This document shows positions 2,685-55,240 of a stretch of DNA of 64,000 nt, piece by piece. This DNA comes from Magnetococcales bacterium (GTDB taxonomy: Bacteria > Pseudomonadota > Magnetococcia > Magnetococcales > Magnetaquicoccaceae). The notes below the pieces were generated by a model. That model made no database searches and was not told the origin of the DNA. It saw only the letters and a list, made by a program, of their open reading frames with translations. A program made the position numbers and the translations under genes. The stretch is taken from positions 1 to 64,000 of the forward strand of contig JAANAU010000001.1 of assembly GCA_011089965.1 (NCBI GenBank), given 5' to 3'. The first letter of the stretch is position 1. Every line of letters starts with the position of its first letter.

Positions 2685-2899
2685 TCACCCAAAAAGCGTA
2701 GTGAGAAGATATTTGTTGCCTGCTATATTCATTACAAATCTGTTGTTTGGTAACAATACTTGCGTAAAGAAATTGATTTTTGATACCAGAAGATCTGATC
2801 CAATTTGCACGTAATACCAAAGCATACCACGCTTCCAAAGGCCCTTTGGCATCCATATAAGCGGGATTGTTTTCCCGAAATTCTCGTAACGTAGATCAT
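2685..2899 (-). pseudogene. HigB-like mRNA interferase toxin, frameshifted remnant
   Basis: Two pieces in different minus-strand frames line up end to end with the HigB/RelE-superfamily toxin. The first piece reads STLREFRENNPAYMDAK and continues to PLEAWYALVLRANW and IKNQF.YASIV. The second, one frame over, reads NNRFVMNIAGNKYLL. An intact HigB has the 'L.AWY......W....IK..F..ASIV.NNRVVFNI.GNKYRL' order without a break. The break falls near 2745-2760. The start is also damaged: an in-frame TGA lies just before the STLREF codons, while the nearest ATG (2899) is in another frame. The C-terminal part of the toxin after GNKYLL is missing (stop at 2685). No antitoxin gene follows. It is probably a dead toxin-antitoxin locus next to the restriction-modification genes. 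Confidence 0.7.
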
Positions 2900-2961
2900 C
2901 GTAACCATCCGACGGCTGTGACGCAAGAGTCACTGGGCTGGTTGCGTTTCATCTGGAGAAT

Positions 2962-3504
2962 ATGCTACATAAAAATATTTTCACATCCCTCCTGCTGCTT
3001 GCGTCCGTCAAAATGAAACGATCCATCAGCGTGGAAAACTTTTTGCGGCAGATTGCTCAAGGCCAACAACGATACCGCATCATCGATTTGCGCGGAGACT
3101 ACCAGCGTGCCATACCGGGATCGATTCCGACACGCTTTCATTCGGATATGTTTTATGAAGAAGCGGGCTGGGTCCAGGACATGCTCGGGGTGCAATTCCA
3201 GGTCGGCGAGCCGGTGCTCCTGGTGTGCAATACCGGCAACTCCAGCCTGGAAGCGGTTGATCTCTTCATCCGCAAGAACCGTCGTTCCCCCTATACCCTC
3301 ATGAGCCTGGCCGGCGGCATCATGGCCTATGAAGAACAGATCACCCGTTGGACCGAAGGTTATCGCCGTCAGGAGCAGTTCCTGAGCGAACTGAACACAA
3401 TCACCACCCCCTCCAACCGCTTCCAGTTCCTGATTACCAGTTTGTGGCAACGACGCAAGCCCAAAGGGTGGCAACGGCTGTTCCATCCCTCCAGTTGGTT
3501 CTGA
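2962..3504 (+). CDS. Rhodanese-like domain protein
   Basis: 180 residues. From about residue 20 it shows a rhodanese fold: an IIDLRGDYQRA motif (the 'D.R...E...G.I' part), then PVLLVCNTGNSS, where the Cys of the CNTGNSS loop is the expected sulfur-accepting residue, then SLAGGIMAYEE, matching the 'L.GG...W' helix. About 50 residues follow, ending in a basic, aromatic tail (KPKGWQRLF) that I do not recognise. A hydrophobic start (LLLLASV) might be a weak signal or anchor if the ATG at 2962 is used. An internal ATG at 3013 would remove it. A GGAG lies only 3 bases before 2962, which is short. It is convergent with the chemotaxis receptor, with 3 bases between stop codons. The physiological sulfur donor or acceptor is unknown. 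Confidence 0.75.
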   Translation: MLHKNIFTSLLLLASVKMKRSISVENFLRQIAQGQQRYRIIDLRGDYQRAIPGSIPTRFHSDMFYEEAGWVQDMLGVQFQVGEPVLLVCNTGNSSLEAVDLFIRKNRRSPYTLMSLAGGIMAYEEQITRWTEGYRRQEQFLSELNTITTPSNRFQFLITSLWQRRKPKGWQRLFHPSSWF

Positions 3505-3507
3505 CGG

Positions 3508-34228: not shown

Positions 34229-37200
34229 TTATAATCTAAACCCGTACAGGGCAACGGCTGCACGCAACCGTTGCAAAGCACTTTCCAAGTCGTAGCCACG
34301 GATATCTTCCCCGATCTCATGCCAATGCTCTGGCAATGTGGCGCGAAATTCCCCATGCCGTTCTTCCCACAGATCCAAGGCCTCGGAATTGTCGTCTGCC
34401 AACAGACGGGCCAATATCTTGACCGTGGGAACAAAAGCCTCCCAATCCACAGCCCGTGGTGTCTGCTGTACCGCCGTCGGCTCCGGCTGCAAGGCCACGC
34501 TCAGGGCAGCCACCAACGCTTGCAGGGGTTGGTCAACGCTGGTCATGAGGTCTGCGACCACTGCATCCGACGCACCTTCTCTGATCGCTGTCTCCAAGCG
34601 GGCAGCTTCCTCTTGTATGATCACCGCCCCTATATTGCCAGCCGTCCCTTTCAATGTATGGGCCATCCGTTCTGCGGTGGTGCGATCCCCAACGGCCAGT
34701 GCAGTGCGCACCTGTTCCATGGCCTGGCTCTGACCGGCAACAAACTTGCGCAACATGGAAAGATACAATGCACGCTTGCCAATCACCCGCTTCAGACCCG
34801 TCACCGTATCCAACCCGGCGATTCCGTGCGGGATCTCGTCCACTCCAGGCTGCCATCCGGCAACCGGCTGCTCCGCAGCCACAGAAGGCCGCCCCGGTAT
34901 GATCCATCTGGCCAGCGTCACAAACATCTCATCCACATTCAACGGTTTGGCGATGTGATCGCACATTCCGACCGCCAGCACCTTTTCCCGATCCCCAGCC
35001 ATGGCATTGGCGGTCATGGCAATCACCGGCAACCGGTCCCAGGCCGGATTGTTGCGAATGGTGCGGGTGGCCGTATACCCATCCATCACCGGCATTTGAC
35101 AATCCATCAGGATGCCGTCAAAACGATCATCCTGCGCCAGACATATCAATGCCTCATTTCCATTGGTGGCCAATACCACCTCGATTCCGGCTCCGGCAAG
35201 AAGTTCCATGGCCAGCTCTTGATTCAGATCATTGTCCTCCACCAAAAGAATCCGTGCGCCACGCAGTTGCTGCATGGCATCCTGACGCCAATCAGTCGGT
35301 TTGTCGCTCTTTCTGCCCCCCTCCACCACGGTTCCCCGTCCCAAGGCTTCACCGATGGTCTCCAGCAACACCGATGGCGTGACCGGCTTGGTCACCACAG
35401 CCCGCACAGCCACCCCCTGCCTGTGCGCTGCGCTCAACGCCTCGTCACGTCCATAGGCAGTCACCATGATCACCGACACCGGATGGCCAGACCCCTCCAA
35501 CTGCACACGACGGGCACACTCCACCCCATCCATGATCGGCATCTTCCAATCCATCAACACCAAATCATACGGCCTGCCCGCCTGATCCGCAGCCACGACA
35601 TATGCCAATCCCTGCGCGCCATCCGGTGCCACATCCACCTGCAAACCAAATGTGCGCGCCATTCCGGAAAGAATTTCCCGTGCCGCTTCATTGTCATCCA
35701 CCACCAACACCCGCAACCCGTTCAACTCATCCGCTCGAAACATCCGACGCGGCATGGGGGTGGCCTGCAAACCGAAACAGGCCTGAAAATGAAAAGTCGA
35801 ACCCTGCCCTTCCATGCTTTCCACCCAGATGCGTCCGTCCATCAACTCCACCAGACTCTTGGAGATGGCCAGGCCCAATCCGGTTCCACCATATTTGCGT
35901 GTCGTTGAGGTGTCGGCCTGGGTAAAGGAATGAAACATCTTGCCCAGTTGCACCTCGGTCATCCCGATGCCGGAGTCTTTGACCCAGAAATGCAACTCCA
36001 CCACACCATTCCGTTCCGCCACCTGGCGGATGCCGATCACAATCTCCCCTTGTTCCGTGAACTTGACGGCATTGTTCCCCAGATTGACCAGAACCTGACC
36101 CAGCCGCAACGGATCCCCAATCAAGGCAGTGGGCAGACCAGGATCGGTATCGAACAGCAACTCCAACCCTTTGTGTTCGGCTTTGATCCCCACCAGATTG
36201 GCCAAATGATCCATGACATCTTCCAACCGGAAATCGATCCGTTCCATGGTCAATTTCCCGGCTTCGATCTTGGAAAAATCCAGGATATCATTGATGATTC
36301 CCAATAGATTTTCCGCAGAGCGGTTGACTTTTTCGATATAGTTGCGTTGTTTTGCATCCAGTTCGGTCTTCAAAGCCAGATGCGACATGCCGATGATGGC
36401 GTTCATGGGGGTGCGGATCTCATGGCTCATATTGGCCAGAAAATCGCTTTTGGCCTTGGTCGCCTCTTCGGCAGCGCGCCGTGCCTCGGCCATGGCCTGT
36501 TCCACGGCTTTGCGTTCGGTGATGTCCCGACCAATCCCCAACAATCCCAGCAAACGACCCTGGGCGTTATAAAAAGGTGCCCGGACCGTGTCGAGCAGTA
36601 CCTTGCGACCATTGGCATAACAGACCCACTCCTCCTCGGCGTGACGTTTCAAGGAGGCCATCAACTCCTGATCGCTCTGCCGGATCGCAAACGCTGCCTC
36701 AGGCGGAAAAATATCAAAATCATTGCGCCCGACAATCTCTTCAACCGGTTTTCCCAACCGTTCGGCAAAGGCAGCGTTGCATCCCAGATAGACCCCTTCA
36801 CTCTCCTTGTAATAAATCAGGTCTGGAATCGCATCGATCAAGGCGCTCAGGGTGGCCCGCTGCCGTTCGATCTCCTCATGCGCCCGTTTCTTTTCCGTGA
36901 TATCCTCCAGGGTGAACTGCAACAGTTGCCGTCCCTGAAATTGAAACAGCATCAAATGGACCTGGGCATCCCAGATCTCCCCATTGGGACGCTGATGCCG
37001 CCACTCGAACACTTGTGGACCGATGATCAGTGCCTGATATTCGATTTGCCGCAAGGCACTCCGGCTGGGAGAACCATCGTATTGGGTCGGTGCCGAAACA
37101 TCGAGCGGTGTCTTGCCGATCAACTCCTCACGACTGGCATAGCCGTACAGGCACACAGCTGCCGGATTGCAATCGATGAAACCCTCACCACGCGGATCGT

Positions 37201-38602
37201 GAATGACAATGGGCCGTGCCGACTCCTGAAACAGCATCTTGTTGTAGGCTTCACTATCCCGCAACGCCGCTTCCGCTGCCTTGCGTTGGGTGATGTCACG
37301 CACCGAAGCGCAGATGCAGATCCCGCGTCCTCCCAAAGCCGGCAGCCGCGACAAAGCCACCTCAACGGGAAATGTGCTGCCATCCAGACGCAATCCAATG
37401 AAATCCCGATCCCCAGCCGCTACAGGACGGATGGGAGCGGCCACGCTGAACTCCTCGCAACGGGCCAGGCTCTCCTCCTGAAAGGCATCCGGCACCAACT
37501 CTCCGATGCGGCGACCGATCAATGCCTTCGGCGCATAGCCGAACATGACATCAATCCGGGGATTGGTCAGAATGATCACCCCATCCTGATCCGCCACCAC
37601 CATGCCATCCGGAGCCGACTCGATGATGCCACGATACCACTCTTCCGTCGCCTGCAAGGCATTGCGACGCTCTTCCAACTCCACGGTCTGGGCAGCCAGT
37701 TGGGTGGCTTGCGCCTCCATGGTATAGGCCTGTTCCCGGGTCTCGTCCAACAGTTGCCGGGTGCGCAGATTGCGCTCCAGAATCTCAATGCTCATGGCCA
37801 GCAATGGAATCAATCCATCCACCAGCGCCTGTTCATGTACATCGAATGGTTTGAAAGCTGCCAACTCCACCACGGCCAACAGTTGATCGTTGCGCAGCAC
37901 CGGCAGAACCAGAATCATCTGCGGTGTGGCCTCCCCCACGCCGGAACCAATCCGTACATAGTCCGCTGGTGGCCGATGAATCAGGATCGGACTCTTTTCC
38001 AGGGCGCACTGCCCGATCAACCCCTCGCCAATTGCAAACACGGGATAAAACCCGTTTCGTTCGCGAAAGGCATACCCACCCAACAGCCGCAAACGTCCTG
38101 ACTCATGCAGATAAAACGCCCCCTGACCGATCTGCAACAACGGCGCGATCCCAGAAAGGAACTTGCGCGCCAGATCGGCAAAATCCACTGCCTCCTGCAA
38201 TACCTGGGAGAGCGCAGCCTGATTGACCTTGACCCAGCGTTGCGCCTCCATCTCTCTGGCCCCGGTACGCAGCACGGCAATGGATCGGGCCAACGCCCCC
38301 ATTTCATTGGGATGCCCGGTGTTGGGCACGGCAATATCAAGCTGACCAGCAGCCAACTGCTCCACCACCACCCGCAACCGTTCGGTCGGACGGCGAATCG
38401 ATGCGCTCACCAACCATCCCAACCCGATCCCCACACAGCCACTGCCGGCCAGTAAAAATAAAGGAACCGGACTTGTCAACAGGTTATACGTGTAAAAATA
38501 ATATAATAATGGAGAGAGGGTCACAACCCAGAATCCGATAAAACCAAACATCAACTTGCCGTTGAGCCGACGCTCTTCCAACAGGGCAACCAGGCTCTTC
38601 AT
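34229..38602 (-). CDS. Large hybrid histidine kinase (TM-GAF-PAS x3-HisKA-HATPase-REC-REC-Hpt)
   Basis: 1457 residues. Two membrane helices (about 18-40 and 45-68) lead to a HAMP-like stretch, a GAF-type domain (about 140-280; [16 protein letters not shown]) and a coiled coil. Three PAS domains follow (about 325-445, 455-570, 585-700), with PAC ends such as SVRDITQRK and IGRDITERK. HisKA has [14 protein letters not shown] (His about 727). The ATPase has [12 protein letters not shown]. Receivers carry [11 protein letters not shown] (about 1017) and [11 protein letters not shown] (about 1167). The C-terminal Hpt has [10 protein letters not shown] (about 1314). All phosphorelay residues are present. 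The gene overlaps the stop of the upstream dCache/GAF/PAS sensor by 4 bases and precedes the HD-GYP regulator by 8, so a relay ending in c-di-GMP turnover is the simplest reading. Confidence 0.94.
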
Positions 38603-40698
38603 GACTCCGCCCTCAAAGAGTAGGGAGGGGGCTGTCCGGCGGCCAAGGCAAAGGCATTCACCTCGTTTTGCAGCACACGTATGCGCTCCTCGCAGCTTTT
38701 GGCCAGACTCTTGAATCCGCGATCCGACATGCGCATCAATTTACGTTCTGTGGCGCGCAGTTCGCTGATATCAACAAAGCTGCCCAGAATCCCTCCGGAA
38801 GAGCCGTCTGGCAAACGAAAACCCGATGCATAATACAAGGTCTCGCGAATGCTGCCATCGGCAAAGGGGAGCAGGATCTCACGACGCACCACACTGCCAT
38901 CGGTCATGATCCGTTCGTCATCGTGCTGAAATGCCTTGCATTCGGATTCGGGAAACAGGGTCAACTGAGCCACCTTTTGACCCAGCAATTGCGCCTGTTC
39001 CACCTGAAAACTCTCCGAAAAGGCACGATTGCATCCCAGAAAACCACCATCCATCCCCTTGTAAAAGATGGGATAAGGAAGGGTATTCACCAGGGCCTGG
39101 TGCAAGGCCAACTGGCTGGCCATCGTCCGTTCTGCACGGGTTGTGGCGCTCAGAAGCTGTTCCGCGTCCCGGTTGCGTCTTTGGATCTCCAGATTCAACG
39201 CCAGCATGGCCACCATCTCGGCGCGCAGATCGGCGCTCTCTTCAAACCGGGATCGGTCCACAAAGGCCATTTCGACCACACCCAACACCAGGTCGTTCAA
39301 CAGCACGGGCATCAGGGCCACCTGTGCCGGTCGCATCTCCCCCAGTCCCGAACGTACAATCTCCAAATGACCTGCCGGGGCAGCAAAAGTCAGTACACGT
39401 CGTTCCAGACAGCACTGCCCGAGCAATCCCTGACCTGGCAGCAACCGTTCCGGCAAATCCCGATTGCAGGCAAAACGGGCTGCCAACCGCATGACATCAC
39501 AACCAGGCGTATAATAGGCATAGATCACCCCCTGCATCATACCCAACAACACATGGGAATCACGCAGAAAAATCTGTCCCAAATCCTCAATTCCCTTGGC
39601 CTGCTGCATGCGCACCGAGGCCTGAGCCAGCCGGGATTTGCGACCTGCACTCTCTTCCTGATGTGTGGCATAGGCGTGCAGTTTGGCAGTGGCCAGATCC
39701 TGGGCATGGTGCCCCCGCAACAGGATCAAAATCAGAACCAGCATCAAAAAGGAGGCAACACCCGCCACCACCATCTCCCGCACCCGCCAACTCAACGGGA
39801 TGGTGCGGGTCAAGTCCTCTCCCAACACCACCAGCCAATCGCCATAAGGATCATTCCAGGTGACCCGGGAGGAGGCTACGGCATGTCGCCGTCCTTCAAA
39901 GACGATCACTCCCGGCTCCACAGACATGGGCAAAGGGTCGGGTTGCTGCTCTTCAAACAGCTTCCCAAACTGCTTCAACTCACGAATCGCCTGCACGCGC
40001 TCCGGAGTCGGCGTGCCTGCCAGCAGTCCGATCCACTCCGAACGGCTGGCGGCAAACACCACCCCTTGAGGAGAAAGCAGCAGAGACCAGTCCGACAGAT
40101 CGGCCAACAACCGGTCGATTTTGTCTGGACCGGTGCGTGACACCATGGCACCGATGCGCTCTGAAGAGGCCACCGGTTCGGCAAACACCGGAGCAGCAAA
40201 ATAAATCGCGCGTCTGTTCGTGGCCAGACTGATGGCAGCATAGATCGATGACTGACCCTGCATGGCCCTCTGGAAATAGGGACGAAACCGGACATCAATC
40301 CCGGTGGAAGGACGACCGGCATTGTCCCAGGAGCTGTGGACCCGTCCGGTGCCGTTCACCACAAACACCCCTTCGGCTTCGTAGGGCAGACCGACACTCT
40401 CCAGCCTGCGCAACAGTTCGGGATCATTGGGGGGATCTTTTTGCATGGCATCACGTTTGATTTTGGGATCGATCAACCCCAACATGGCGACAGATCCCAT
40501 GGCGCTGCCATTCAGAGTCAGGGAGAGCAACTCCAAAGCTGCGCGTTCCACCTTGGTGCCCAAATGGATCAAACGTGCCCGTTCATGTTCGCGGCACAAA
40601 TATTCGCCCGTTGTTCCGGCCATGATCACACTCAAGGCAACGATGCCCACCCAGGCCAGAGCTTTCCTTCTGGACACCCATGCTGCCAATCCAGTCAT
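38599..40698 (-). CDS. Membrane sensor with extracytoplasmic dCache-like, GAF and PAS domains, no output domain
   Basis: 699 residues from the ATG at 40698, chosen because GGAG precedes it by 8 bases; the upstream ATG at 40737 lacks a site and overlaps the preceding gene. Membrane helices at about residues 13-30 and 315-338 enclose a periplasmic sensor of dCache type (FRPYFQRAMQGQSSIYAA is typical). In the cytoplasm comes a GAF domain (about 375-520; GQGLLGQCCLERRVLTFA), resembling that of the downstream kinase, then a PAS domain (about 545-660; GSFVDISELRATERK) and a short coiled coil. No kinase, cyclase or methyl-accepting domain follows, so it probably feeds the hybrid kinase whose start codon overlaps its stop. 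Ligand unknown. Confidence 0.85.
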   Translation of the reverse strand: MTGLAAWVSRRKALAWVGIVALSVIMAGTTGEYLCREHERARLIHLGTKVERAALELLSLTLNGSAMGSVAMLGLIDPKIKRDAMQKDPPNDPELLRRLESVGLPYEAEGVFVVNGTGRVHSSWDNAGRPSTGIDVRFRPYFQRAMQGQSSIYAAISLATNRRAIYFAAPVFAEPVASSERIGAMVSRTGPDKIDRLLADLSDWSLLLSPQGVVFAASRSEWIGLLAGTPTPERVQAIRELKQFGKLFEEQQPDPLPMSVEPGVIVFEGRRHAVASSRVTWNDPYGDWLVVLGEDLTRTIPLSWRVREMVVAGVASFLMLVLILILLRGHHAQDLATAKLHAYATHQEESAGRKSRLAQASVRMQQAKGIEDLGQIFLRDSHVLLGMMQGVIYAYYTPGCDVMRLAARFACNRDLPERLLPGQGLLGQCCLERRVLTFAAPAGHLEIVRSGLGEMRPAQVALMPVLLNDLVLGVVEMAFVDRSRFEESADLRAEMVAMLALNLEIQRRNRDAEQLLSATTRAERTMASQLALHQALVNTLPYPIFYKGMDGGFLGCNRAFSESFQVEQAQLLGQKVAQLTLFPESECKAFQHDDERIMTDGSVVRREILLPFADGSIRETLYYASGFRLPDGSSGGILGSFVDISELRATERKLMRMSDRGFKSLAKSCEERIRVLQNEVNAFALAAGQPPPYSLRAES

Positions 40699-40720
40699 GG
40701 CGTGCGCTCCGCAAAACCTG

Positions 40721-43459
40721 TCATGCCGATTTGCCATCCCGGGGAAGCAGGAACGTAAAGGTCGCCCCCTGGCCCAATCGGCTCTCCACCCAGATGCGTC
40801 CCTGATGGCGTTCGATGATTCTCTGACAGATGGTCAGACCCAGGCCGGTTCCCAACGGCACATCCCGTCCCTCATCCCGGGCCTGATGGACCTGATGGAA
40901 CTTTTCAAACACCTTTTCCAGATCCTCTTCCGGAATGCCCGGTCCATTATCCACCACAGCCATTCCCACCTCTTCCGGTGTGGCACGCATCTGCACCTCC
41001 ACCACGCCAATACCGGACTCACAAAACTTGACCGCATTGGAGAGCAGATTGATCATCACCTGAATGATCTTGTCCCGATCTGCCAGCAACATCACCGGTT
41101 GCTCCGGGGAATGAAAGATCAAACGCACGGATTTGTTCTGAAACAACTGCAAGATGGCATCCATGGCATCGCGCATCAACTCCACCAGATCGACCCGACT
41201 CACATGCCACTCCATCTTGCCGGATTCGATGCGGGCCAGATCCAGGATCTGATTGACCAGACGGGTCAACCGTTCGGCCTCCTTGATGATGATTTCGGTA
41301 AAACGGCGGCGATCTCCAGCCTCCATCTCTTCATTATCGCGCAGGATTTCGGAAAACGCGCGGATCGAGGTCAAAGGGGTGCGCAATTCGTGACTGACCG
41401 TGGAGATGAATTCATCTTTCAGACGGTCCAACTCCTGAAGGCGTTCATTGGCCTCCTGCAACTGACGGGTGGCTGCCTCCAGTTGTCGCGATTTCAACTC
41501 CAGCCTTTGGCTGTATTCGATCACCTGACTGGTTTCATCCAGGATGCGCATCACCCCGTGCAAATCCAGCTCTTCACCTTTGACCACGGAGGAGACCATC
41601 ACCCGGGCTGAGGCCGAGCCGATGGCACCGGTCAAACGCTTTTCGGCAAAGGCCACCAGATGGGCTGGTGCCTGGGCCATTTCATCCAGTTTCAACAAAC
41701 GGTGCTGCAAATAGTTGGCAAAGTCCAGTTCTGCCTGAATCGGACCAATAAAACGGGCCAGCAGTTTCTTCAGATCTCCCACCGAGACAAAACCGCTCCA
41801 CAGATATTCGTTGCCGCCGCGTGCCCCTTTTTCAAAGACATTGACAAAATTCAATGCCTGGATCTGTTCAACAGCGTTCTGACGATCAAAAAGAGAGACC
41901 AGTACCAGCAATCCGGTATTGGCCAGCATGCTCCAGAAGACCGAATGGGTGATGGGATCAAACACGGTCAGACCGAACAGGGCCTGCGGCTTCAACCAGG
42001 CCATGCCCCAGGGTCCGTGGGTCAGAAAGCTTTCTGCAATCCAACCCGACTTGGCAAACGAGGCCAACAGCAACGTATGGGTCCAGACCGCAAATCCCGC
42101 CACCAGACCTGCCAGGGCCGCGCGTCTGCTCACCCCCTGCCAATAGATCCCGATCAGAATGGGCGGGGCAAACTGGGCCACGGCAGCAAACGAGATGATG
42201 CCGATACTGACCAGGGTGTGAGACTCCCCCAGCAGACGAAAATAGAGATAACCCAATAGCATCAACACAACGATGATCCCGCGCCGCAACGTCAGAATCA
42301 TGCCGGACAGATCCTCCCGGAAAGCGGAGCGGAACCGCAGCAACAACGGCAGAATCAGATCATTGCTCACCATGGTGGACATGGCAATCACCTCGACGAT
42401 CACCATGCTGGTGGCTGCGGACAAACCGCCCAGATAAACGAACAGAGCCAACCAGACCTGATCCCCATGGATCGGCAGGGTCAGGACATAGGTATCCGGA
42501 TCCATGCCCTGCCCGGCAAAGATCAAACGTCCGGCCAACGCAATCGGCAGCACAAACAGATTGAAGGCCAATAAATACAAAGGAAACAGCCAGGATGCCT
42601 GACGGATGTGGGCAGGGTTGACATTTTCCACCACCAACACCTGAAACTGGCGTGGCAAAAACATGACCGCCATCATCGCCAGCAAGGTCATGGAGAACCA
42701 CGACACATATCCCCCCGGCATGGCCTCGAAGGTCATCAAGCGCCTGAGCTGCGGATCGGCCAGGGTGCGGCGGAACAGATCGCCAAAACCATCGAACAGA
42801 CCATAGGTCACGAAAAGACCCACGAACAGGAAAGCCCCGAGTTTGACCAGGGACTCGAAGGCAATGGCCGTGACCATCCCTTCATGGCGCTCGCTGGCAT
42901 CCAGATGGCGCGTTCCGAACAGAATGGAAAAAAGGGCCAGAATCATGGCCACATACAACGCGGTATCGCTCCAGGGGGCAGCAGGGCCATCCCAGGACAA
43001 CTCCTGATCCAGATGATGCACCAACACATCCAGGCTGACTGCCACGGCTTTCAGTTGCAAGGCGATATAGGGCATGATTCCGATGACCACAAACAAGGTC
43101 ACCAGCCCCCCCAACAGCGGGCTTTTGCCATAGCGCGAAGAGATGAAATCGGCAATCGAGGTGATGTGGTTCACCTTGGAGATGGCAATGATCTTGCCCA
43201 AAAGAAACCACCAGATGGCCGCAATCAACGTTGGCCCCAGAAAGATCGGCAAGAAACCGATCCCGGTCTCTGCTGCCCGTCCGACACTGCCATAATAGGT
43301 CCAGGAGGTACAATAAACGGCAATGGAAAGGGTATAGATGGTTGGATTGTTGACCAGAGAGCGTCCGGCAGACGCCCGTCGGTCGGCGTGATAGGCAACG
43401 GCAAACAGCAACCCCAGATAGAGAACAGAAACGATGGGAACAATCCATTGCCAGCCCAT
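40721..43459 (-). CDS. Sodium/solute symporter-histidine kinase fusion (CbrA-like)
   Basis: 912 residues. The first ~500 hold about 13 membrane helices of the sodium:solute symporter family; NPTIYTLSIAVYCTSWTYYG and RYGKSPLLGGL are typical of CbrA-type proteins. A cytoplasmic helical/STAC-like and coiled-coil linker follows (about 530-670). HisKA has STVSHELRTPLTSIRAFS (His about 690). The ATPase domain has NAVKF, VVDNGPGIPEED and GTGLGLTICQRI. CbrA-like kinases link transport-like sensing of carbon or amino-acid sources to gene expression. The nearest receiver gene on the same operon is the small one at 45842, a plausible partner. The start lies 1 base after the stop of a small membrane protein. 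Confidence 0.94.
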   Translation of the reverse strand: MGWQWIVPIVSVLYLGLLFAVAYHADRRASAGRSLVNNPTIYTLSIAVYCTSWTYYGSVGRAAETGIGFLPIFLGPTLIAAIWWFLLGKIIAISKVNHITSIADFISSRYGKSPLLGGLVTLFVVIGIMPYIALQLKAVAVSLDVLVHHLDQELSWDGPAAPWSDTALYVAMILALFSILFGTRHLDASERHEGMVTAIAFESLVKLGAFLFVGLFVTYGLFDGFGDLFRRTLADPQLRRLMTFEAMPGGYVSWFSMTLLAMMAVMFLPRQFQVLVVENVNPAHIRQASWLFPLYLLAFNLFVLPIALAGRLIFAGQGMDPDTYVLTLPIHGDQVWLALFVYLGGLSAATSMVIVEVIAMSTMVSNDLILPLLLRFRSAFREDLSGMILTLRRGIIVVLMLLGYLYFRLLGESHTLVSIGIISFAAVAQFAPPILIGIYWQGVSRRAALAGLVAGFAVWTHTLLLASFAKSGWIAESFLTHGPWGMAWLKPQALFGLTVFDPITHSVFWSMLANTGLLVLVSLFDRQNAVEQIQALNFVNVFEKGARGGNEYLWSGFVSVGDLKKLLARFIGPIQAELDFANYLQHRLLKLDEMAQAPAHLVAFAEKRLTGAIGSASARVMVSSVVKGEELDLHGVMRILDETSQVIEYSQRLELKSRQLEAATRQLQEANERLQELDRLKDEFISTVSHELRTPLTSIRAFSEILRDNEEMEAGDRRRFTEIIIKEAERLTRLVNQILDLARIESGKMEWHVSRVDLVELMRDAMDAILQLFQNKSVRLIFHSPEQPVMLLADRDKIIQVMINLLSNAVKFCESGIGVVEVQMRATPEEVGMAVVDNGPGIPEEDLEKVFEKFHQVHQARDEGRDVPLGTGLGLTICQRIIERHQGRIWVESRLGQGATFTFLLPRDGKSA

Positions 43460-43705: not shown

Positions 43706-45835
43706 TCAATAATTCGCCTTGGCCTGCTGTCGCCGGATCAGGACCATGCTGTCTGATGCCTGCATGGCCAGACCAAGGGTCGAGATTCCACGGGCCTTGA
43801 ACAGTTCAAGCAGTTTCAGGAAGACTTCGGCAGTCACCATGGCATCGCCCATGGCCGTATGACGCAAATGGGTCGGGACATCCACCCCGAGCCGTTCGGC
43901 AATGGCATCCAGGGTGTGGTCGGTCACTTCGTCATGCAGATAGACCGACAGCAGCAGAGTATCCAACACCGGGTTGTCAAACCGGACCCCGCAACTCTCC
44001 TCTTTCAGTTGCAGGAAACGCATATCAAAGGCGGCATTGTGCGCCACCAGCACCGCATCCCCCACAAAGGCCTTGAACTGGGGCAGAATCTCTTGAATGG
44101 TCGGCTTGTCCCGCACGTCTTCATTGGTGATGCCATGAATGCGGATCGACTCCACCGGAATGGTGCGTTGTGGATTGATCAACCGTTCGAACCGTTCGCC
44201 CAACAACACGCGACCGTTGACAATGCGCACCCCGGCCAGCGAGATGATCTCATCCCCTTTGGAAGGGTTCAAGCCGGTGGTTTCGCTGTCAAACACCACA
44301 TAGTTCAATCCAGACAGGGGCATGGCCAACCGGGCACCCAGGGAGGCAAAACCGCTCATCAGGGAGAAATCATAAAACTCCGGACGCTCAGGAATGGTCT
44401 GCACCGGATAGCGCCACTGACGCGAGGAAGGGGCCACCGGCAGCCGCAACATGGCATGACCGAGACGACGATGGGGTTGACTCCAGATTTCGCAGCCATG
44501 CCGCTCCAGAATCTCATCCAGTCGGATGGTGGCATTGCCATCCCCGAGATGCATCGCATGCCAGGATTCCACTTCCGTGGCCGAAATGGGGTTTCCCGGC
44601 CAGATCAGGTCGAGATAGATGCGGTGGTTGCCCATCAAGGCTTCCAGTTCGATCCGGACCGGCCCCACCTGATCGCGAATCTTCAGCAACACATACTCCA
44701 ATGCCAGCAGCAAAGCCGGGGCATCGGCCTGAATCCACAAGGGTTCACCAATGGCCTGCAATCCAATCCCGCTCCCATGGTGGCGTTCCAAACGCCGGAT
44801 CAACGCCTCGATCAAATCGGAAGTCAATACATCGTTCAACACCCAGTGTTCCGCAGCCAGGGTATCGGCTTCGGTGACAATGGTGTCCAGACGCACGGAG
44901 AGTTCGGCCACCTCATCGTGCATCACCCGGACAAACCGTTCCCGCGCTTCGGACTCCATGTCCGGGTATTCGATCAAGGTTTCGCTGGCTGCGCGCAGAT
45001 TGGCCACCGGCCCCCGGATGTTCTCCAGGGCATGGCGGATCAGACGATCACTGCGCCGCAATCCGGACACCCTTCGGGTCGCCTCTTCAAAGGTGATCAG
45101 ATAGTAATGGTGATCACTCTGACGGCTGGGAAACAGGCTCATGGCACAATCGAGCATCACGTCGTCATGCAAAGCAGCACAAAAGAAGCGCGCATCGCCC
45201 TTGCCTACGCATCCATCCGGAGTTGCGTGACAACGGTTGAGAAACTCCATGGTGGTCTCAAGCGGGGTGCGGGCACAAAGTTCATACAGCGAACGCCCCA
45301 AACCCAAGGCATCCATGCGATTGCGAAAAAGGTTCTGGGCAGCCAGATTGTACAACACGATGCCCGCATCGGAGTTGATGACGATCAGACCGACATTCAG
45401 GTGTTTGATCACCTTTTCCAGCCGTTCCACCCCTTCGACGTGGTTGGCCAAAGTCTCTCCGATCTGGCGTCGGGCTTGCAGCAAGGCGGTGCCGAGCTGA
45501 CGGGCCGCTTCCGGCAGGGTGCCGAGCAGATGTTCGGATTCCAGTTGCATCTCATGGGCCGGATCGGCATTGGCAATGATCGACAAATCGCGGCTGACAT
45601 GGACCAAAGGCATGATCAACACCTTGTCCAACCAGGCCCAGATCTGCACCAAAACGAACAAAATCAAAAATGAGAGCGCCAACCCATAGAACAGACGGGT
45701 CTGGAACCATGCGAGGGTGTTGCCATCCAACTCCGGAAGATCCTGGGTCGCATACCAGGCAAAGCCTCCCCAACAACCCATCGCAATCAGGAAGAACAGC
45801 CCGAGGATCAACCAGAAACGGGTACGGATGCTCAT
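43706..45835 (-). CDS. Membrane-bound PAS/degenerate kinase domain fused to a DnaQ-like 3'-5' exonuclease
   Basis: 709 residues. Two membrane helices (about 7-29 and 46-69) and a HAMP-like helix precede a PAS domain (about 135-250; LNVGLIVINSDAGIVLYN). A HisKA-like helix pair follows, LENIRGPVANLRAA, in which the usual phospho-acceptor His of 'SHELRTPL' is replaced (E aligns). An ATPase-like region lacks the N and G boxes, so it is a pseudokinase. From about 510 to 690 is a DEDDh exonuclease: FDSETTGL, GITNEDV, HNAAFDMRFL and HTAMGDAMVT supply all acidic residues and the His. It resembles the epsilon proofreading subunit but is tied to a membrane sensor. It follows the receiver gene by 6 bases. 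Similar exonuclease genes near acs/actP occur, to my memory, in gammaproteobacteria. Confidence 0.9.
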   Translation of the reverse strand: MSIRTRFWLILGLFFLIAMGCWGGFAWYATQDLPELDGNTLAWFQTRLFYGLALSFLILFVLVQIWAWLDKVLIMPLVHVSRDLSIIANADPAHEMQLESEHLLGTLPEAARQLGTALLQARRQIGETLANHVEGVERLEKVIKHLNVGLIVINSDAGIVLYNLAAQNLFRNRMDALGLGRSLYELCARTPLETTMEFLNRCHATPDGCVGKGDARFFCAALHDDVMLDCAMSLFPSRQSDHHYYLITFEEATRRVSGLRRSDRLIRHALENIRGPVANLRAASETLIEYPDMESEARERFVRVMHDEVAELSVRLDTIVTEADTLAAEHWVLNDVLTSDLIEALIRRLERHHGSGIGLQAIGEPLWIQADAPALLLALEYVLLKIRDQVGPVRIELEALMGNHRIYLDLIWPGNPISATEVESWHAMHLGDGNATIRLDEILERHGCEIWSQPHRRLGHAMLRLPVAPSSRQWRYPVQTIPERPEFYDFSLMSGFASLGARLAMPLSGLNYVVFDSETTGLNPSKGDEIISLAGVRIVNGRVLLGERFERLINPQRTIPVESIRIHGITNEDVRDKPTIQEILPQFKAFVGDAVLVAHNAAFDMRFLQLKEESCGVRFDNPVLDTLLLSVYLHDEVTDHTLDAIAERLGVDVPTHLRHTAMGDAMVTAEVFLKLLELFKARGISTLGLAMQASDSMVLIRRQQAKANY

Positions 45836-46544: not shown

Positions 46545-48416
46545 ATGAATGTCGATACCGAAGAGATCATCCATTTCCTCGCCAGCCATCCCCCCTTTGC
46601 CCTGCTCTCCCGCGAACAACTGGCAGCCATCGCAGCACGTCTCGATATCGTCCAAACCCGACGGGGACACGAAATCCTCGCCCCGGGAGGCAAGACCAAT
46701 GTCTTGCATCTGATTCGCAGCGGTGCCGTGGACGTGCATGGTCCTGGTGGCAAATTACTGCTGCGCCTCGGTGAAGGGGAGATTTTCGGTGCCGAAGCCC
46801 TCCTGCGCGGCGGCAAGGTGCGCAATCGGGTCACGGCCATTGAAAAAACCTTGCTCTATCTCCTGCCGCAGCAGGAGTTTCACCGCCTCTGCCAGGAAGA
46901 GGACGCCTTTGCCGAATTCATCGTGCCCTTGGGTGCCGAACGGCTGCGCAGCGCCTTGCAACGCCAGGATCCGCCGGATCTGACCCTGGCACTCAATCTC
47001 GGAGCCTCCCTGGTGCGCGATCTGCCGATTCAACCCATGGTGCTGGCCCTCCCAAACCTCACCATCCGCGAGGCCGCCCAATGGATGCAGGACCGCACGG
47101 TGCCAGCCCTGTTGATCTCCGATGGCGAACGATTGCTGGGCCTGGTCACGGACCGGGATCTGACCACACGGGTGGTGGCAACGGCCATGGATCCATCCCA
47201 ACCCGTGGCACAGGTGATGACCCCGGATCCGGTGACCATCGGCATCGACGATCAGGCCAGCGATGCCATGCTGCTGATGGTTGAGAAAAACATCAAACAT
47301 CTGCCGGTACTGGATGGGGAACGCCCGGCAGGTCTGCTGACCAGCCAGGATCTGACCGTGCGCCAATTGGGCAGCACCCCTGTCTATCTGATCAGCACGA
47401 TTGCCCGCATGGAGCGCCTGGAAGATCTGCGCGCCGTGGCCCGAGAGGTGCCCAATCTCCTGGTCACCATGACAGCCGCCAATGCCACTGCTTTGAGCAT
47501 GGGCAAGGCCATGGCCTTCATGACCGATGCCTTTACCAAACGGCTGATCCGCATGGCCGAAGAGCGGCTGGGCGCACCACCGGTGCCCTATGTCTGGCTG
47601 GCCGGGGGTTCTCAAGGGCGTCAGGAACAGATGGTTGGAGGGGATCAGGACAACTGTCTGATTCTCGATAATGGATACGACCCCCAATATCACGGACTCT
47701 ACTTTGAGGCCTTGACCCGTTTTGTCTGCGACTCTCTGGATCTGTGCGGCTATGATCACTGCCCGGGCAACATGATGGCCAGCAATCCCACCTGGCGTAC
47801 CACTCTGAGCGAGTGGCAACAAAACTTTACCCAATGGATCTCACAACCAGACCCCAAAGCCCTGATGCTGGTCAGTGTCTTTTTCGATCTGCGTCCCATT
47901 CATGGTGAAATGACATTGGCCGATGAACTGCGCACCTATATCCTTGACAAAGCACGCGGGGCTACGGTCTTTCATGCCCACATGTCGGTCAATGCCTTGA
48001 GTCGCACTCCGCCTTTGGGATTTTTTCGCGATTTCGTGTTGCGTCAGGGAGGGAAATATGCCGACACCCTGGATCTGAAACTGACCGGGGTGATTCCTGT
48101 CGTGGACTTGGCGCGCGTCTACGCCCTGGAGTCTGGCGTGGAGGCGGTCAACACCCATGAAAGATTGGCCGCCGCCGGACAACAAGGGATCATCACCGAA
48201 TCATCGGCACGGGATCTGCGCGATGCTTTGGAGTTCATCGCCTTTACCCGCTGTCGCCACCAGGCCAGGGCAATCAAAGCCAGCAGAATCCCCAACAACC
48301 ATCTTCCACCCACGGAACTGTCGGAATTCGAGCGTCGCCATCTCAAGGATGCCTTCCGGGTGGTGCAGGTGATGCAACGCTCCCTGGCCAGTCGGCATCA
48401 CATTGATCGGATGTAA
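46545..48416 (+). CDS. Cyclic-nucleotide-binding/CBS/nucleotidyltransferase (DUF294) protein
   Basis: 623 residues. A cNMP-binding-fold domain (about 15-130) has a short phosphate-binding cassette region (LRLGEGEIFGAEALL). Two CBS motifs follow (about 155-280; VPALLISDGERLLGLVTDRD and KHLPVLDGERPAGLLTSQD). A DUF294-type nucleotidyltransferase (about 330-400) has GGSQGRQEQMVGGDQD, with the G-S and D-x-D metal residues, then a C-terminal helical domain. By analogy with GlnD-like transferases it may nucleotidylate a protein in response to adenine nucleotides; the target is unknown. The head-on-divergent neighbour is the exonuclease operon and the next genes are actP/acs, an association I recall in other proteobacteria. 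An intrinsic terminator follows 2 bases after the stop. Confidence 0.88.
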   Translation: MNVDTEEIIHFLASHPPFALLSREQLAAIAARLDIVQTRRGHEILAPGGKTNVLHLIRSGAVDVHGPGGKLLLRLGEGEIFGAEALLRGGKVRNRVTAIEKTLLYLLPQQEFHRLCQEEDAFAEFIVPLGAERLRSALQRQDPPDLTLALNLGASLVRDLPIQPMVLALPNLTIREAAQWMQDRTVPALLISDGERLLGLVTDRDLTTRVVATAMDPSQPVAQVMTPDPVTIGIDDQASDAMLLMVEKNIKHLPVLDGERPAGLLTSQDLTVRQLGSTPVYLISTIARMERLEDLRAVAREVPNLLVTMTAANATALSMGKAMAFMTDAFTKRLIRMAEERLGAPPVPYVWLAGGSQGRQEQMVGGDQDNCLILDNGYDPQYHGLYFEALTRFVCDSLDLCGYDHCPGNMMASNPTWRTTLSEWQQNFTQWISQPDPKALMLVSVFFDLRPIHGEMTLADELRTYILDKARGATVFHAHMSVNALSRTPPLGFFRDFVLRQGGKYADTLDLKLTGVIPVVDLARVYALESGVEAVNTHERLAAAGQQGIITESSARDLRDALEFIAFTRCRHQARAIKASRIPNNHLPPTELSEFERRHLKDAFRVVQVMQRSLASRHHIDRM

Positions 48417-48522: not shown

Positions 48523-50217
48523 TCAGTGCGCGGAAGCACCGGAAGCACCGATACCCGTTTCGCAACGGACGTTCTGGGCATCATACAGGCTGCGCTCTGC
48601 CTTGGCACGATCACTGAAGTCGAGCTTGGAGAAGATCCAACTGCCGACAAAGGCCAGAGTCATCGAGAAGATGGCCGGATCCTTGTAGGGGAACAAAGGA
48701 GCCTTGTTGCCCAACACATCCACCCAGACGGTCTTGGAGAGCACCACCATGGTGATGGTGGCAATCAACCCCATGGCGCTTCCCATCACGGCACCGCGCG
48801 TGGAGAGGTTTCTCCAATAAACCGACAGGATCAGGATCGGGAAGTTGGCCGATGCCGCAATGGCAAATGCCAGACCGACCAGGAAGGCCACGTTCTGCTT
48901 TTCAAACTGAATTCCCAGGAAAATCGCGATCACACCGATTACCAGGGCAGCCATCTTGGAGATACGCATCTCCTTCTTTTCATCCGCATTACCGCCACAA
49001 ATGGCACTGGCATAGAGGTCATGCGAGACCGCCGAAGCTCCGGCCAGAGTCAGTCCCGAAACCACGGCCAGGATGGTGGCAAAAGCCACGGCAGAGATGA
49101 AGCCGAGGAACAGGTCGCCACCTGTGGCATGGGCCAAGTGAATGGCGGCCATGTTGTTGCCACCGTTCAGGGTACCCTTGACCGCATCCACATACTGCGG
49201 ATTGTGGGAAACCAGCAGCACGGCACCAAAACCGATGATGAAGGTGAGGATATAGAAGTAGCCGATGAAACCCGTGGCATAGAAGACCGACTTGCGGGCC
49301 TCTTTGGCATTGGCCACAGTGAAGAAGCGCATCAGGATGTGCGGCAGACCTGCGGTACCGAACATCAGGGCCAGACCGAGAGAAATGGCCGAAAGTGGAT
49401 CAGAGATCAATGCACCAGGTGCAAAGATGTCCTGATTGGTTGCCACGATCTTCTTGTGATCGGCCAGGGCACTGGTCTTGATCCCTTCCTGGGCCATGCT
49501 GAAGAACTGCTCCATGTTGAAACCGACATGATTGAGCGCGCCCAGGGCAATGAAGGTGGCACCGCTCAAGAGCAGCACAGCCTTGATGATCTGCACCCAG
49601 GTAGTGGCGATCATGCCGCCAAAGGCCACATACAGAATCATCAGCACACCCACCAGCACCACTGCCACCTCATACGGCAAACCAAACAGGGTCCGGATCA
49701 ACTGACCTGCACCCACCATCTGCGCAATGAGATAGAGGATCACGGTACAGATCGTGCCGATGGCCGACATGGTGCGGACCGGAACACGGGCCAAACGGAA
49801 CGAGACAATGTCGGCAAAGGTGTAGCGTCCCAGATTGCGCAACTGCTCGGCCATCAGGAACAGGATGATCGGCCACCCCACCAGCCAACCGATGGAGTAG
49901 ATCAATCCGTCGTATCCCTTGGCAAACACCATGGAGGAGATACCCAGGAAGGAGGCTGCCGACATGTAGTCACCGGCAATGGCCAAGCCATTCTGAAAAC
50001 CGGTGATTCCGCCACCAGCGGCATAGAAGTCCTTGGTGGATTTGGTGCGGGCTGCTGCCCAATAGGTGATTCCCAGGGTCACGGCAACAAAGATGAAGAA
50101 CATGATAATGGCAGTCATGTTCATCTTGGACTCCGCCTTGGCCGGCTCTGCAGCCCAGAGGAGCGTGGTCCAGGTTCCGGCAACGAGCGCGGATGCGAGG
50201 GCCGTCAATTGCTTCAT
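48523..50217 (-). CDS. actP: Cation/acetate symporter ActP
   Basis: 564 residues. After a probable signal-like helix (to about 23) come some 13 membrane helices of the sodium:solute symporter family. Typical ActP wording includes [56 protein letters not shown] and [17 protein letters not shown]. It imports acetate and related short-chain acids with sodium or protons. The start overlaps the stop of the DUF485 gene by 4 bases. It is downstream of acs on the same strand, although a terminator separates acs from this pair. Confidence 0.95.
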
Positions 50218-50730: not shown

Positions 50731-52671
50731 TCAGTTGGTCGGCTGACGCTCGTCGATAAGCTTTTGCACCACACTGGGATCTGCCAGGGTGGTGGTATCG
50801 CCCATACTGTCGAGTTCGTTGGCTGCGATCTTGCGCAAAATGCGGCGCATGATCTTGCCGGAACGGGTCTTGGGCAGGCCCGGTGCCCATTGCATCACAT
50901 CGATATGGGCAATCGGTCCGATCTCTTTGCGCACCAAGGCACCCAACTCCTTGCGCAAGGCATCGGATGGCTCTTCACCGACCATCAAGGTGACAAAGGC
51001 ATAGATGCCTTGACCCTTGATTGCATGGGGATAACCCACCACGGCAGCCTCTGCCACCTTCTCGTGCAAGACCAGTGCGGATTCGATTTCCGCCGTACCC
51101 AGATTGTGGCCAGAGACGATGATGATGTCATCCACGCGCCCGGTGATCCAGTGATACCCATCTTCGTCACGACGGCAGCCGTCACCCGGGAAGTAACGTC
51201 CGGGATAGGCGGCAAAATAGGTGTTGAAGAAGCGTTGATGATCGCCATACACGGTGCGCATCATGCCAGGCCACGGACGGGCAATGGTGAGAATGCCGGA
51301 GGTGGCTCCCTCTTGCAAAACACCCTTCTCGTCCACGATCTCCGGAAGGATGCCGAAGAATGGCAGCGTGGCTGAACCCGGCTTGGTGGCAATGGCACCC
51401 GGCAACGGGGTGATGAGGATGCCCCCGGTTTCGGTCTGCCACCAGGTATCCACAATCGGGCAACGCCCTTGACCCACGGTGTGATAATACCACTCCCAGG
51501 CTTCCGGATTGATCGGCTCGCCCACGGAACCGAGCAGACGCAAGGAAGCGCGGCTGGTGCAGTTCACGAACGATTCGCCCTGGGCCATCAGGGAACGGAT
51601 GGCAGTGGGCGCGGTATAGAAAATGTTCACCTGATGCTTGTCGATCACCTGCCAGAAACGGGAGGCATCGGGATAGGTGGGAATCCCTTCAAAGATCAGG
51701 GTAGTAGCCCCGTTGGAGAGCGGACCATAGACGATATAGCTGTGGCCGGTGATCCAACCCACATCTGCCGTACACCAGAAGATCTCGCCGTCATGATAGT
51801 CGAAGATGTAACGGAAGGTGATATTGGCATACAGGATGTAACCGCCAGTGGTGTGCAACACCCCTTTGGGTTTGCCGGTCGAACCGGAGGTGTAAAGAAT
51901 GAAGAGCGGATCTTCCGCATCCATGGGTTCTGCCGGGCAGACCGGATCCGCAGCCGCCACGGCTTCATGATACCAGACATCGCGGGCCGGATCCATGGGC
52001 ACGGCACCGCCGGTCAGACGGATCGTGAACACCGTATGGACCGAAGGGCAGGACTTGATCGCTTCATCCACATTGACGCGCAGCGGAATCTTTTTGGCAC
52101 CGCGCACCCCTTCATCTGCCGTGATCACGGCACAGGACTGGGCATCCTGGATGCGATCCTTGAGAGATTCCGGCGAGAAGCCGCCGAAAACCACCGAATG
52201 GACCGCACCAATGCGGGTGCAGGCCAGCATGGCCACGGCTGCTTCGGGGATCATCGGCATGTAGATGCAAACCCGGTCTCCCTTTTTGATGCCGCGCGCC
52301 TTCATGGCATTGGAAAAGCGGCACACCTCGGCATGCAGTTCCCGGTAGGTGACTTTTTTCGACTGGTTCGGATCATCCCCTTCCCAGATGATGGCGGTCT
52401 GATCCCCCCGGCTCTCCAGATGCCGGTCCAGACAGTTGTAGGAGACATTGAGTTGCGCACCCTCAAACCAACGGATATGGGCCTTGTTGAAGTCCCAATC
52501 CATCACCGTATCCCACTTCTTGAACCAGTGGATCAACTTGTCCGCCTGCTCGCCCCAGAACCCTTCCGGATCCTGAATCGAACGGGCATACATGGCATCG
52601 TATTGTTCACGATTGATCCATGCATTGGCAGCAGCCTGGGGTGGAACGGGATAGATTTTGTCACTGCTCAT
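50731..52671 (-). CDS. acs: Acetyl-coenzyme A synthetase (acetate-CoA ligase, AMP-forming)
   Basis: 646 residues, normal length. The start at 52671 is fixed by AAGGAGATTCAGGT before the ATG and by the usual start of the Acs domain. Motifs: [19 protein letters not shown] (AMP-binding P-loop), [30 protein letters not shown] and [13 protein letters not shown], with the Lys whose acetylation controls Acs. The hinge region reads [10 protein letters not shown], where nearly all Acs enzymes have Arg (GHRLGTAE or GHRMGTAE). It activates acetate via acetyl-AMP to acetyl-CoA, feeding citrate synthase encoded nearby. A terminator follows; DUF485 and actP lie beyond it. Confidence 0.97.
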
Positions 52672-53242
52672 ACCTGAATCTCCTTGATAACGTTCTTTGC
52701 TCGGGTGGTGTTTGTTGGAAATACCATTCCTCGATACATACCAGCAGTGCTGACGTGGAAAGATCTTTATGGTGCATTGCAATATATTAATCCAGCTCTA
52801 TTATGTGCAACGCAACATAACCCCCTTGTGTCCCCCTCCGGGAGTAGTTGGCCTTCCCGACCTTACTGCCTGGAAATGCCATCGACTGGACAAGCCAGCG
52901 AATATCCCGCCCTTACAGGATGATCAATACGGGAAGATTATTGGTTTGTCAAAGTCAAATCGTGTCACCTCCTTTCCATCAATACGGAAATTCATGGCTG
53001 GACAGGTTGCAAACCGTGCCAATGACACAGAAAGAACGCCTGGATATAACTTTCCTTAAGCAGCGATCCGTGCCGAATCTCAAGTTTTTTCAAGGCGTCT
53101 GAATCGTTGGAGTTTCCGGTGCATCCAGGCCCCGGCAACCGCCATTTGACATTCATCCGGGACATCATCCCGTGAAAAAAAATTGCCCACCGCCCCTCCG
53201 GTGTGCAAGGCAAGCGACTTTCTTAAACTTTCTGCTGGACGC
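52672..53242. other. 571-base gap upstream of acs, no gene supported
   Basis: Several short open frames exist on both strands but none is recognisable or has a good ribosome binding site. The part nearest acs is AT-rich. On the minus strand TTGCAC near 52810 and an ATATAT/TAATAT element about 17 bases later could be a weak sigma-70 promoter for acs. A small stem, CGGGA and TCCCG (53158-53172), has no T run on the correct side. The length suggests complex acs regulation or a decayed gene. Confidence 0.5.
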
Positions 53243-53938: not shown

Positions 53939-55240
53939 TCATCCCCGGGCATCCAACCCGGGAACATCACGACGTTTGTGTCCGATATACAGTTGTCTCG
54001 GACGCCCGATCCCTTCATCGGTACCGATCATTTCGTTCCACTGGGCAATCCAGCCAATACAACGCGAAACGGCAAAGATCACGGTGAACATGTTGGTGGG
54101 AATACCCATGGCCGACAGAATCACCCCAGAGTAGAAGTCCACATTGGGGTAGAGTTTCTTGCGTACGAAATAGTCATCTTCCAGAGCGATCCTCTCCAGC
54201 TCCTGAGCCACATGGAAGAGCGGATCATCGCTGTGGCCCAACTGTTCCAACACCTCTCTGGCGGTTTTATGAAGGATCTGGGCGCGCGGATCGTAATTCT
54301 TGTAGACCCGATGACCAAAACCCATGAGCCGGAAGGGATCGTCCGGATCCTTGGCCCGTTTGATGAATTCGGGGATCCGTTGGACCGTACCGATTTCGCG
54401 CAGCATCTTGAGGACCGCCTCGTTGGCACCGCCATGGGCCGGTCCCCACAAGGAACCCACACCCGCAGAAATGGCGGCAAACGGATTGGCCTGGGAAGAG
54501 CCGGCCAGACGGACGGTGGAGGTGGAAGCGTTCTGTTCGTGATCGGCATGCAGGATCATGATCTGATCCAGGGCCTTGGCCATGAGCGGCGATACCTTGT
54601 ATTCGGCGCAGGGCACGGCAAACATCATGTGCAGGAAGTTCTCTGCATAGCCCAGTTCATTGCGCGGATAAACAAACGGTTGCCCCAGATAATACTTGTA
54701 TGCAGCCGCTGCAATCGTTGGCATTTTGGCAATGATCCGGAAGGCCGAAATCAGACGATGACGGGGATCACGGATATCCAGAGAGTCGTGATAAAAGGCC
54801 GACAATGCCCCAACCACCCCCACCACAATCGCCATCGGATGGGCATCCCGGCGGAAACCCCGATACATCTGCAAGAGCTGCTCATGCATCATGGTGTGGT
54901 TGGTCACGATCTTGCGAAAATCGCAATTCTGCGCCTGGGTCGGCAACTCTCCATTCAAAAGCAGGTAGCACACCTCCAGGTGATCGCATTGATCGACCAG
55001 CTGTTCCACCGGATAGCCCCGATAGAGCAGGATTCCCTTTTCCCCATCGATGAAGGTGATTTTGCTCTGGCATGAAGCCGTGGAACGAAAGCCCGGATCC
55101 AGGGTGAACAGTCCCAAATCCGAATAAAGACGGGTGATATCGAAGACATCCGGCCCCTCGCTTCCGTGCAGGATCGGAAATTCGGCTTCACGATTGGTGC
55201 GATTGTCACGAACGGTTACAGTATCTTTGAGCATCAACAA
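53939..55240 (-). CDS. gltA: Citrate synthase (type II, hexameric)
   Basis: 433 residues, the type II bacterial length. Recognised segments: [48 protein letters not shown]-like [14 protein letters not shown] with the active-site His, [16 protein letters not shown] with the second His, [15 protein letters not shown], and [10 protein letters not shown] with the catalytic Asp. It condenses acetyl-CoA and oxaloacetate to citrate. The neighbourhood (acs 1 kb away, 2-oxoacid:ferredoxin oxidoreductase and SdhA/FrdA 5-8 kb away) fits a TCA-cycle cluster that could run oxidatively or, with the ferredoxin enzyme, reductively. It lies 45 bases downstream of the ZapE gene stop. Confidence 0.97.

Follow-up and report, generated by a model that had tools for sequence, protein, structure and literature searches.

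A membrane-anchored DEDDh exonuclease fused to a predicted pseudokinase beside a lone receiver gene in an acetate-use gene cluster of Magnetococcales

Gene cluster and domain layout

The window, meaning the whole stretch of 64,000 nucleotides that was analysed, comes from a magnetotactic-type bacterium and contains, in a gene cluster for acetate use, a gene whose product joins two membrane helices, a PAS-like domain and a kinase-like core to a DEDDh exonuclease domain. The first-pass annotation had placed this gene at 43706-45835 on the minus strand, and the open reading frame lies exactly there, with an ATG start and a length of 709 aa; the receiver and the CbrA-like kinase that it had assigned to the same operon are likewise present, the latter being CrbS-like. 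The main genes of the cluster are listed below.

40721..43459, minus strand: CrbS-like kinase, an SLC5-type transporter part followed by HisKA-HATPase; no C-terminal receiver, no Response_reg found
43706..45835, minus strand: TM-TM-PAS-pseudo(HisKA+HATPase)-DEDDh exonuclease, 709 aa
45842..46219, minus strand: single-domain receiver, 125 aa; Response_reg E = 1.5e-29, no output domain; separated by 6 bp from the exonuclease start downstream of it
46545..48416, plus strand: cNMP-binding/CBS/DUF294 nucleotidyltransferase, divergent from the receiver; PF03445 E = 6.8e-45, PF10335 E = 1.7e-45
48523..50217, minus strand: ActP-type cation/acetate symporter; NF006903, 890 bits
50214..50543, minus strand: small membrane protein, presumably DUF485/YjcH-like, as judged in part from its actP-adjacent position; conserved beside actP in relatives
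50731..52782, minus strand: presumably acetyl-CoA synthetase, start codon uncertain; relatives have copies of 88-90% identity next to this cluster

Just beyond the acetyl-CoA synthetase gene, positions 53939-55240 (minus strand) hold what is taken to be a citrate-synthase-like gene, which fits an acetate-use region. On the other side, CrbS is followed with overlapping ends by a Cache-GAF-PAS protein that lacks a kinase domain (38599-40737, minus strand), and this, again in the same direction and with an overlapping end, by a hybrid kinase of 1457 aa with HAMP, GAF, PAS repeats, two receivers and an Hpt (34229-38602, minus strand). The parts of the fused protein are as follows.

45755..45817, minus strand: TM helix 1, about residues 7-27 (Kyte-Doolittle maximum; model helix 3-31)
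45638..45700, minus strand: TM helix 2, about residues 46-66 (Kyte-Doolittle maximum; model helix 38-89)
45080..45427, minus strand: PAS-like domain, residues 137-252 (PAS-like strands and helices in the model)
44846..45079, minus strand: pseudo-DHp (HisKA-like) hairpin, residues 253-330 (helices 253-289 and 295-330 in the model; hhalign to CrbS)
44426..44845, minus strand: pseudo-HATPase, residues 331-470 (hhalign alone; W412)
44315..44425, minus strand: linker with an R-P-E-x-Y-D-F motif, residues 484-490 (72-sequence alignment)
43820..44299, minus strand: DEDDh exonuclease domain PF00929 (Pfam; catalytic residues; PolC/epsilon structure match)

The exonuclease profile PF00929 covers residues 513-672 with E = 2.7e-39 and 135.8 bits, over the curated cut-off of 24, and all five D-E-D-H-D residues are in place, so that the domain belongs to the DEDDh (DnaQ-like) family. 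The PAS domain gives a weak Pfam sequence match (E = 0.013), and HisKA and HATPase give none when the fused protein of the window is searched singly; a HisKA match was obtained for 13 of 53 homologues. In an alignment of 72 sequences, L161, N163, G178 and G180 of the PAS-like domain are conserved, the last three being invariant, as are R484, D489 and F490 of the linker. The AlphaFold2 model built from the same alignment, as one chain without the receiver, has a mean pLDDT of 89.4 and shows, in this order, two long N-terminal membrane helices, the PAS-like region, the DHp hairpin, the ATPase-like domain and the nuclease. An antisense ORF of 604 aa (43859-45673, plus strand) traverses the gene; it is probably a composition effect, since similarly long antisense ORFs oppose other genes of the window.

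The kinase-like core and the exonuclease domain

Residues 240-480 align with the core of the neighbouring CrbS kinase over both HisKA and HATPase (hhalign profile alignment, E = 4e-20), and the ATPase half taken alone does so with E = 5.6e-8. The initial description of a HisKA-like region that has lost its acceptor His therefore stands, but not its restriction to HisKA, a pseudo-HATPase also being present. In the window's protein the phospho-acceptor is replaced by Glu271; this column holds Glu in 67 and Asp in 13 of 97 homologues, and an intact acceptor His, which would have spoken against the first reading, was found in none of the 97. The Asp of the G1 box (DxGxG) of the ATPase has become Trp412 in 97/97 and the ATP-lid region is shortened, so that, of the marks of an active histidine kinase, the acceptor and an intact G1 box and lid are lacking and the kinase-core fold is present. 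His268 was considered as an alternative phospho-acceptor and dropped, being neither conserved nor within the HisKA register. The pseudo-ATPase has conserved residues of its own (W412, W425, H446, W451 and R464), and Arg274, three positions after the acceptor site, is kept in 95 of the 97 homologues. In DivL the acceptor+3 residue, R553, is indispensable if DivK is to bind; the protein senses DivK~P and needs no kinase activity to do so (PMC4211667).

Foldseek matches of the model to complete histidine kinases include the WalK model 9a5d (E = 3.7e-19), VicK, ThkA-TrrA, HK853-RR468 and DivL, in superpositions whose rmsd over the full chain is near 20 Å, too coarse for exact geometry but informative on domain order and fold; searching the PDB by sequence with a profile built from the pseudokinase region likewise yields kinases, including DivL 4q20 (E = 4.6e-8). 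Judged from alignment and model, the core is complete in fold and appears dead in chemistry. The conserved fold, the lost acceptor and G1 residues and the kept nuclease residues together suggest that selection has retained the fold and the catalytic residues of the nuclease while removing the kinase chemistry.

Full-length homologues are found in Alpha-, Beta- and Gammaproteobacteria and in Magnetococcia, where many, not all, Magnetococcales have them, as well as in MAG entries named Nitrospirota, Desulfobulbaceae and Chloroflexota, labels that are no proof of host. The sample includes MAG contigs, and among 249 genomes sampled evenly across the phylum a minority have full-length forms. PDEN_RS25415, from the complete genome of Paracoccus denitrificans PD1222, shares the whole architecture and the gene neighbourhood, the overlapping genes running DUF294-like / small protein / SLC5-kinase / receiver / nuclease, and the transporter part of the window's CrbS is 57% identical to its counterpart there. 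Because full-length homologues occur across phyla and classes and in this complete genome, the fusion is not a chance event or an assembly accident. One locus was rejected as evidence (L128, G015 contig C118): its ORF of 802 aa at 1445-3850 joins the first 318 residues of an exonuclease homologue to residues 154-638 of an acetyl-CoA synthetase, and, since the same fragmented MAG also holds a full-length copy, the join is likely a misassembly or a deletion.

All 97 homologues have the catalytic residues of the nuclease (D516, E518, D604, H659 and D664), which bears out the first-pass picture of a pseudokinase in the membrane joined to an intact nuclease. The nuclease domain of the model matches PolC and epsilon exonucleases at 1.5-2 Å rmsd (Foldseek), and these are also the closest solved nuclease domains, as might be expected if the protein were an ordinary DNA-processing exonuclease, acting like epsilon in proofreading or in repair and tethered to the membrane incidentally. 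Such a role is nevertheless highly improbable: with 132.5 bits the fused protein falls far below the curated cut-off of 222.7 for DNA polymerase III epsilon (TIGR01406), its genes lie in acetate-metabolism clusters, and loss of a DUF294-linked relative that stands alone affects growth in a way that depends on the carbon source (PMC9927547). Proofreading in particular, against which the first reading had already argued, is unlikely because a separate epsilon-like gene of 250 aa exists elsewhere in the same genome.

The association with acs, DUF294 and a receiver does recur: of the 82 loci that bear a DHp and have 4 kb or more of flank, the receiver is adjacent in 72, a DUF294-like gene is found in 62 and acs in 35. 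DUF294 also neighbours the TM-PAS-nuclease forms without a kinase core in 33/33 loci with enough flank. Stand-alone exonucleases of family NF006602 were found in 30 of the 249 genomes, 19 of them scoring above the curated cut-off, with a same-strand DUF294 gene adjacent in 30/30 and about 25-33% identity to the exonuclease domain of the fused protein. As for the objection that the nuclease part might be expressed separately as an ordinary epsilon subunit, relatives that stand alone were indeed found, but these belong to the DUF294-linked family and not to the replicative epsilon. Within Magnetococcales the two forms look mutually exclusive, 17 sampled genomes having the fused form only, 8 the stand-alone form only and 5 neither (Fisher p = 2e-4, relatedness ignored).

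In Pseudomonas putida the exonuclease pp_0353 forms an operon with pp_0354, which has a CBS domain and whose promoter is bound by ErdR; deletion of pp_0353 delays growth on pyruvate, deletion of pp_0354 does not, and neither deletion affects growth on acetate, the authors offering mRNA degradation as one possible role (PMC9927547). In P. aeruginosa, PA3232-PA3235 are induced about 16-fold on propionate (PMC9765439). The fused nuclease may therefore act in the same pathway as the DUF294-exonuclease pair and on the same kind of substrate. The substrates put forward in the first-pass annotation (small RNA, an oligonucleotide or a signalling nucleotide) are hypothetical candidates. The work on the stand-alone relative (PMC9927547), the pseudo-ATPase and the receiver link described below all go beyond the first-pass annotation.

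Association of the receiver gene with the pseudo-DHp

Among 115 paired homologues, 114 have the receiver's phospho-site, Asp53. A total of 174 loci with enough flank were scored for the state of the pseudo-DHp, taken as present when at least 50 of 69 columns were filled, and for the receiver, taken as adjacent within 600 bp on the same strand. The receiver is adjacent in 120 of 133 loci with the DHp and in 0 of 41 in which the DHp is absent or shrunk (Fisher p = 9e-29, relatedness ignored); the 41 comprise 34 TM-PAS-nuclease forms without the kinase core and 7 in which the ATPase-like part remains. Within a single alphaproteobacterial family (f39) the contrast is 27/28 with the DHp versus 0/40 without, and CrbS is rarely adjacent there. 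The 13 DHp-bearing loci that have no adjacent receiver speak against docking of the receiver on the DHp.

Six Accumulibacter loci (L083, L084, L086, L088, L091 and L105), all DHp-bearing and without an adjacent receiver, showed neither a receiver nor CrbS nearby; a partner gene may lie elsewhere in these genomes, unless the link has been lost. Stripped-down TM-PAS-exonuclease versions without the kinase core, many of about 475 aa, are found at loci L164-L167 and L235-L264. A paper on the receiver PXO_RS20535 was set aside as belonging to an unrelated context.

Since the short TM-PAS-nuclease forms lack the kinase part altogether, the receiver is dispensable for the basic function. The existence of the 34 loci of this kind, which keep their DUF294 neighbour, together with the invariance of N163, G178, G180, D489 and F490 in the PAS and linker regions, is what would be expected if the kinase-like core were a mere dimerising transmission linker, the TM/PAS part sensing a ligand for the nuclease and the receiver acting elsewhere. 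Neither the conservation of DHp length and of Arg274 over great distances nor the complete absence of an adjacent receiver where the DHp is gone or shrunk is predicted by a mere linker, which makes this explanation unlikely.

Whether the association could be a by-product of operon history, a few ancestral events having removed both parts before vertical spread, bears on the same counts. Most DHp-less loci belong to one family. A tree of the nuclease domain yields 4 supported independent pairs, or 7 when all branches are counted; in 3.8 of the 4 the receiver changes in the same way as the DHp and in none in the opposite way, which with so few events gives a non-significant sign test (p = 0.125), a result that also weighs against docking. 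On this tree the DHp state must nevertheless have changed no fewer than 7 times, with 4 of the changes forced by supported branches. In addition, one locus of Magnetococcales (locus L161), the most clear-cut case for the link between DHp and receiver, has the order DUF485-ActP-DUF294-nuclease, lacks residues 253-325 and has no receiver between DUF294 and the nuclease, where relatives of the same order have a receiver between DUF294 and a DHp-bearing nuclease; two events are needed here, because the TM and PAS parts, which are retained, separate the two missing parts, and a single deletion cannot explain both. CrbS moreover lies upstream or downstream in varying gene orders while the receiver stays attached to the nuclease, so that a purely historical origin of the association is distinctly unlikely. 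Covariation between receiver and nuclease protein, computed as APC-corrected mutual information with low power (about 70 effective sequences), showed no enrichment in the DHp, with 0 of the 20 top pairs in helix 1, and this too counts against docking.

The pseudo-DHp was also compared with the histidine kinases of the genome, 88 of 90 fetched stretches yielding a DHp. CrbS ranks first of the 88 in likeness, with a score of 71 against 55 for the next and a median of 26, and a genome search with residues 240-480 gave CrbS as the only significant kinase match (E = 0.002). Given this closeness of the two DHp regions, the likeliest receiver for the pseudokinase would be one that also recognises CrbS. 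The same ranking would suit a pseudokinase that serves as partner or inhibitor of CrbS, pairing with its DHp or competing for the receiver as a sink, with the nuclease as a separate output, and a form of the histidine kinase ChrS that is a pseudokinase has been reported (PMC9491836). The family that keeps the receiver-DHp link although CrbS is rarely adjacent, and the full conservation of the nuclease residues, argue against this arrangement, which is regarded as quite improbable.

Proposed signalling route and comparison with known systems

The reading favoured here, and considered probable with some reserve, is that of a membrane exonuclease governed by a receiver that docks on it, in a reverse signalling of the DivL/DivK kind. 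At the level of sequence it can draw on a core that looks dead, intact nuclease residues, a receiver with an apparently intact phospho-site and a conserved linkage between them. The CrbS-like transporter-kinase would sense acetate or another monocarboxylate and, as the operon and the DHp similarity suggest, phosphorylate the stand-alone receiver. Having no output domain of its own, the receiver would then dock on the dead DHp of the fused nuclease in the manner of DivK~P on DivL, and the docked receiver, together with the protein's own TM/PAS input, could gate the DEDDh nuclease across the conserved linker. The gene neighbourhood points to a pathway shared with the neighbouring DUF294 nucleotidyltransferase, probably through a common substrate, and nuclease and DUF294 protein may together form part of the adaptation to acetate or pyruvate.

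A broader interpretation, advanced tentatively as a possibility, is that this represents a new two-component output, in which a carbon-source sensor controls a membrane nuclease, not transcription, via a lone receiver on a dead kinase. If true, sensing of acetate or another monocarboxylate would be coupled directly to the turnover of nucleic acid or of a nucleotide-tagged substrate made by DUF294; the receiver-on-pseudokinase switch of the DivL kind would be a widespread driver of enzymes and not a peculiarity of the Caulobacter cell cycle; and the DUF294-exonuclease pair of the Pseudomonas acetate regulon would gain a direct regulator and a testable function. PD1222, a laboratory strain, carries the kinase (PDEN_RS25405), the receiver (PDEN_RS25410), the nuclease (PDEN_RS25415) and the DUF294-like protein (PDEN_RS25395) in one gene run. 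The homologues are annotated as 'exonuclease domain-containing protein', without mention of the pseudokinase or of the receiver link, and the regulatory half has been overlooked because the annotation records the exonuclease only. The parts are known and their wiring appears to be undescribed: among open-licence PMC papers, none was found on DUF294 with an exonuclease and acetate, or on pseudokinase-exonuclease fusions.

The closest regulatory likeness is to DivL/DivK of Caulobacter crescentus, which shares the PAS domain, the dead HisKA-HATPase with its replaced His, the acceptor+3 Arg and the single-domain receiver partner; what marks a DivL-type protein, namely a dead core with a conserved docking residue and a genetic link to a single-domain receiver, is found here as well. 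In DivL, however, the acceptor position is Tyr and the target is the kinase CckA, whereas here this position is mostly Glu or Asp and the output would be the fused nuclease; docking of DivK on DivL is known, and the corresponding receiver interaction is here a putative one. The SLC5-type transporter-kinase, with acs, actP, DUF485 and DUF294 nearby, resembles CrbS/CrbR (MxtR/ErdR), but CrbS as described so far is a hybrid kinase (PMC5715377) and that of the window has no receiver domain; the cluster contains no equivalent of CrbR, because the neighbouring receiver has Response_reg only and lacks a DNA-binding domain. The pair pp_0353/pp_0354 (PA3232/PA3233 in P. aeruginosa) offers a further parallel, an RNase_T-type exonuclease beside a CBS/DUF294 protein in an acetate regulon (PMC9927547), with the differences that pp_0353 is described only as an RNase_T protein and that the stand-alone NF006602 members found here have no kinase core. 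Finally, DNA polymerase III epsilon and PolC have the DEDDh fold and residues in common with the fused protein, which differs from them in its fusion to membrane helices and in its gene neighbourhood.
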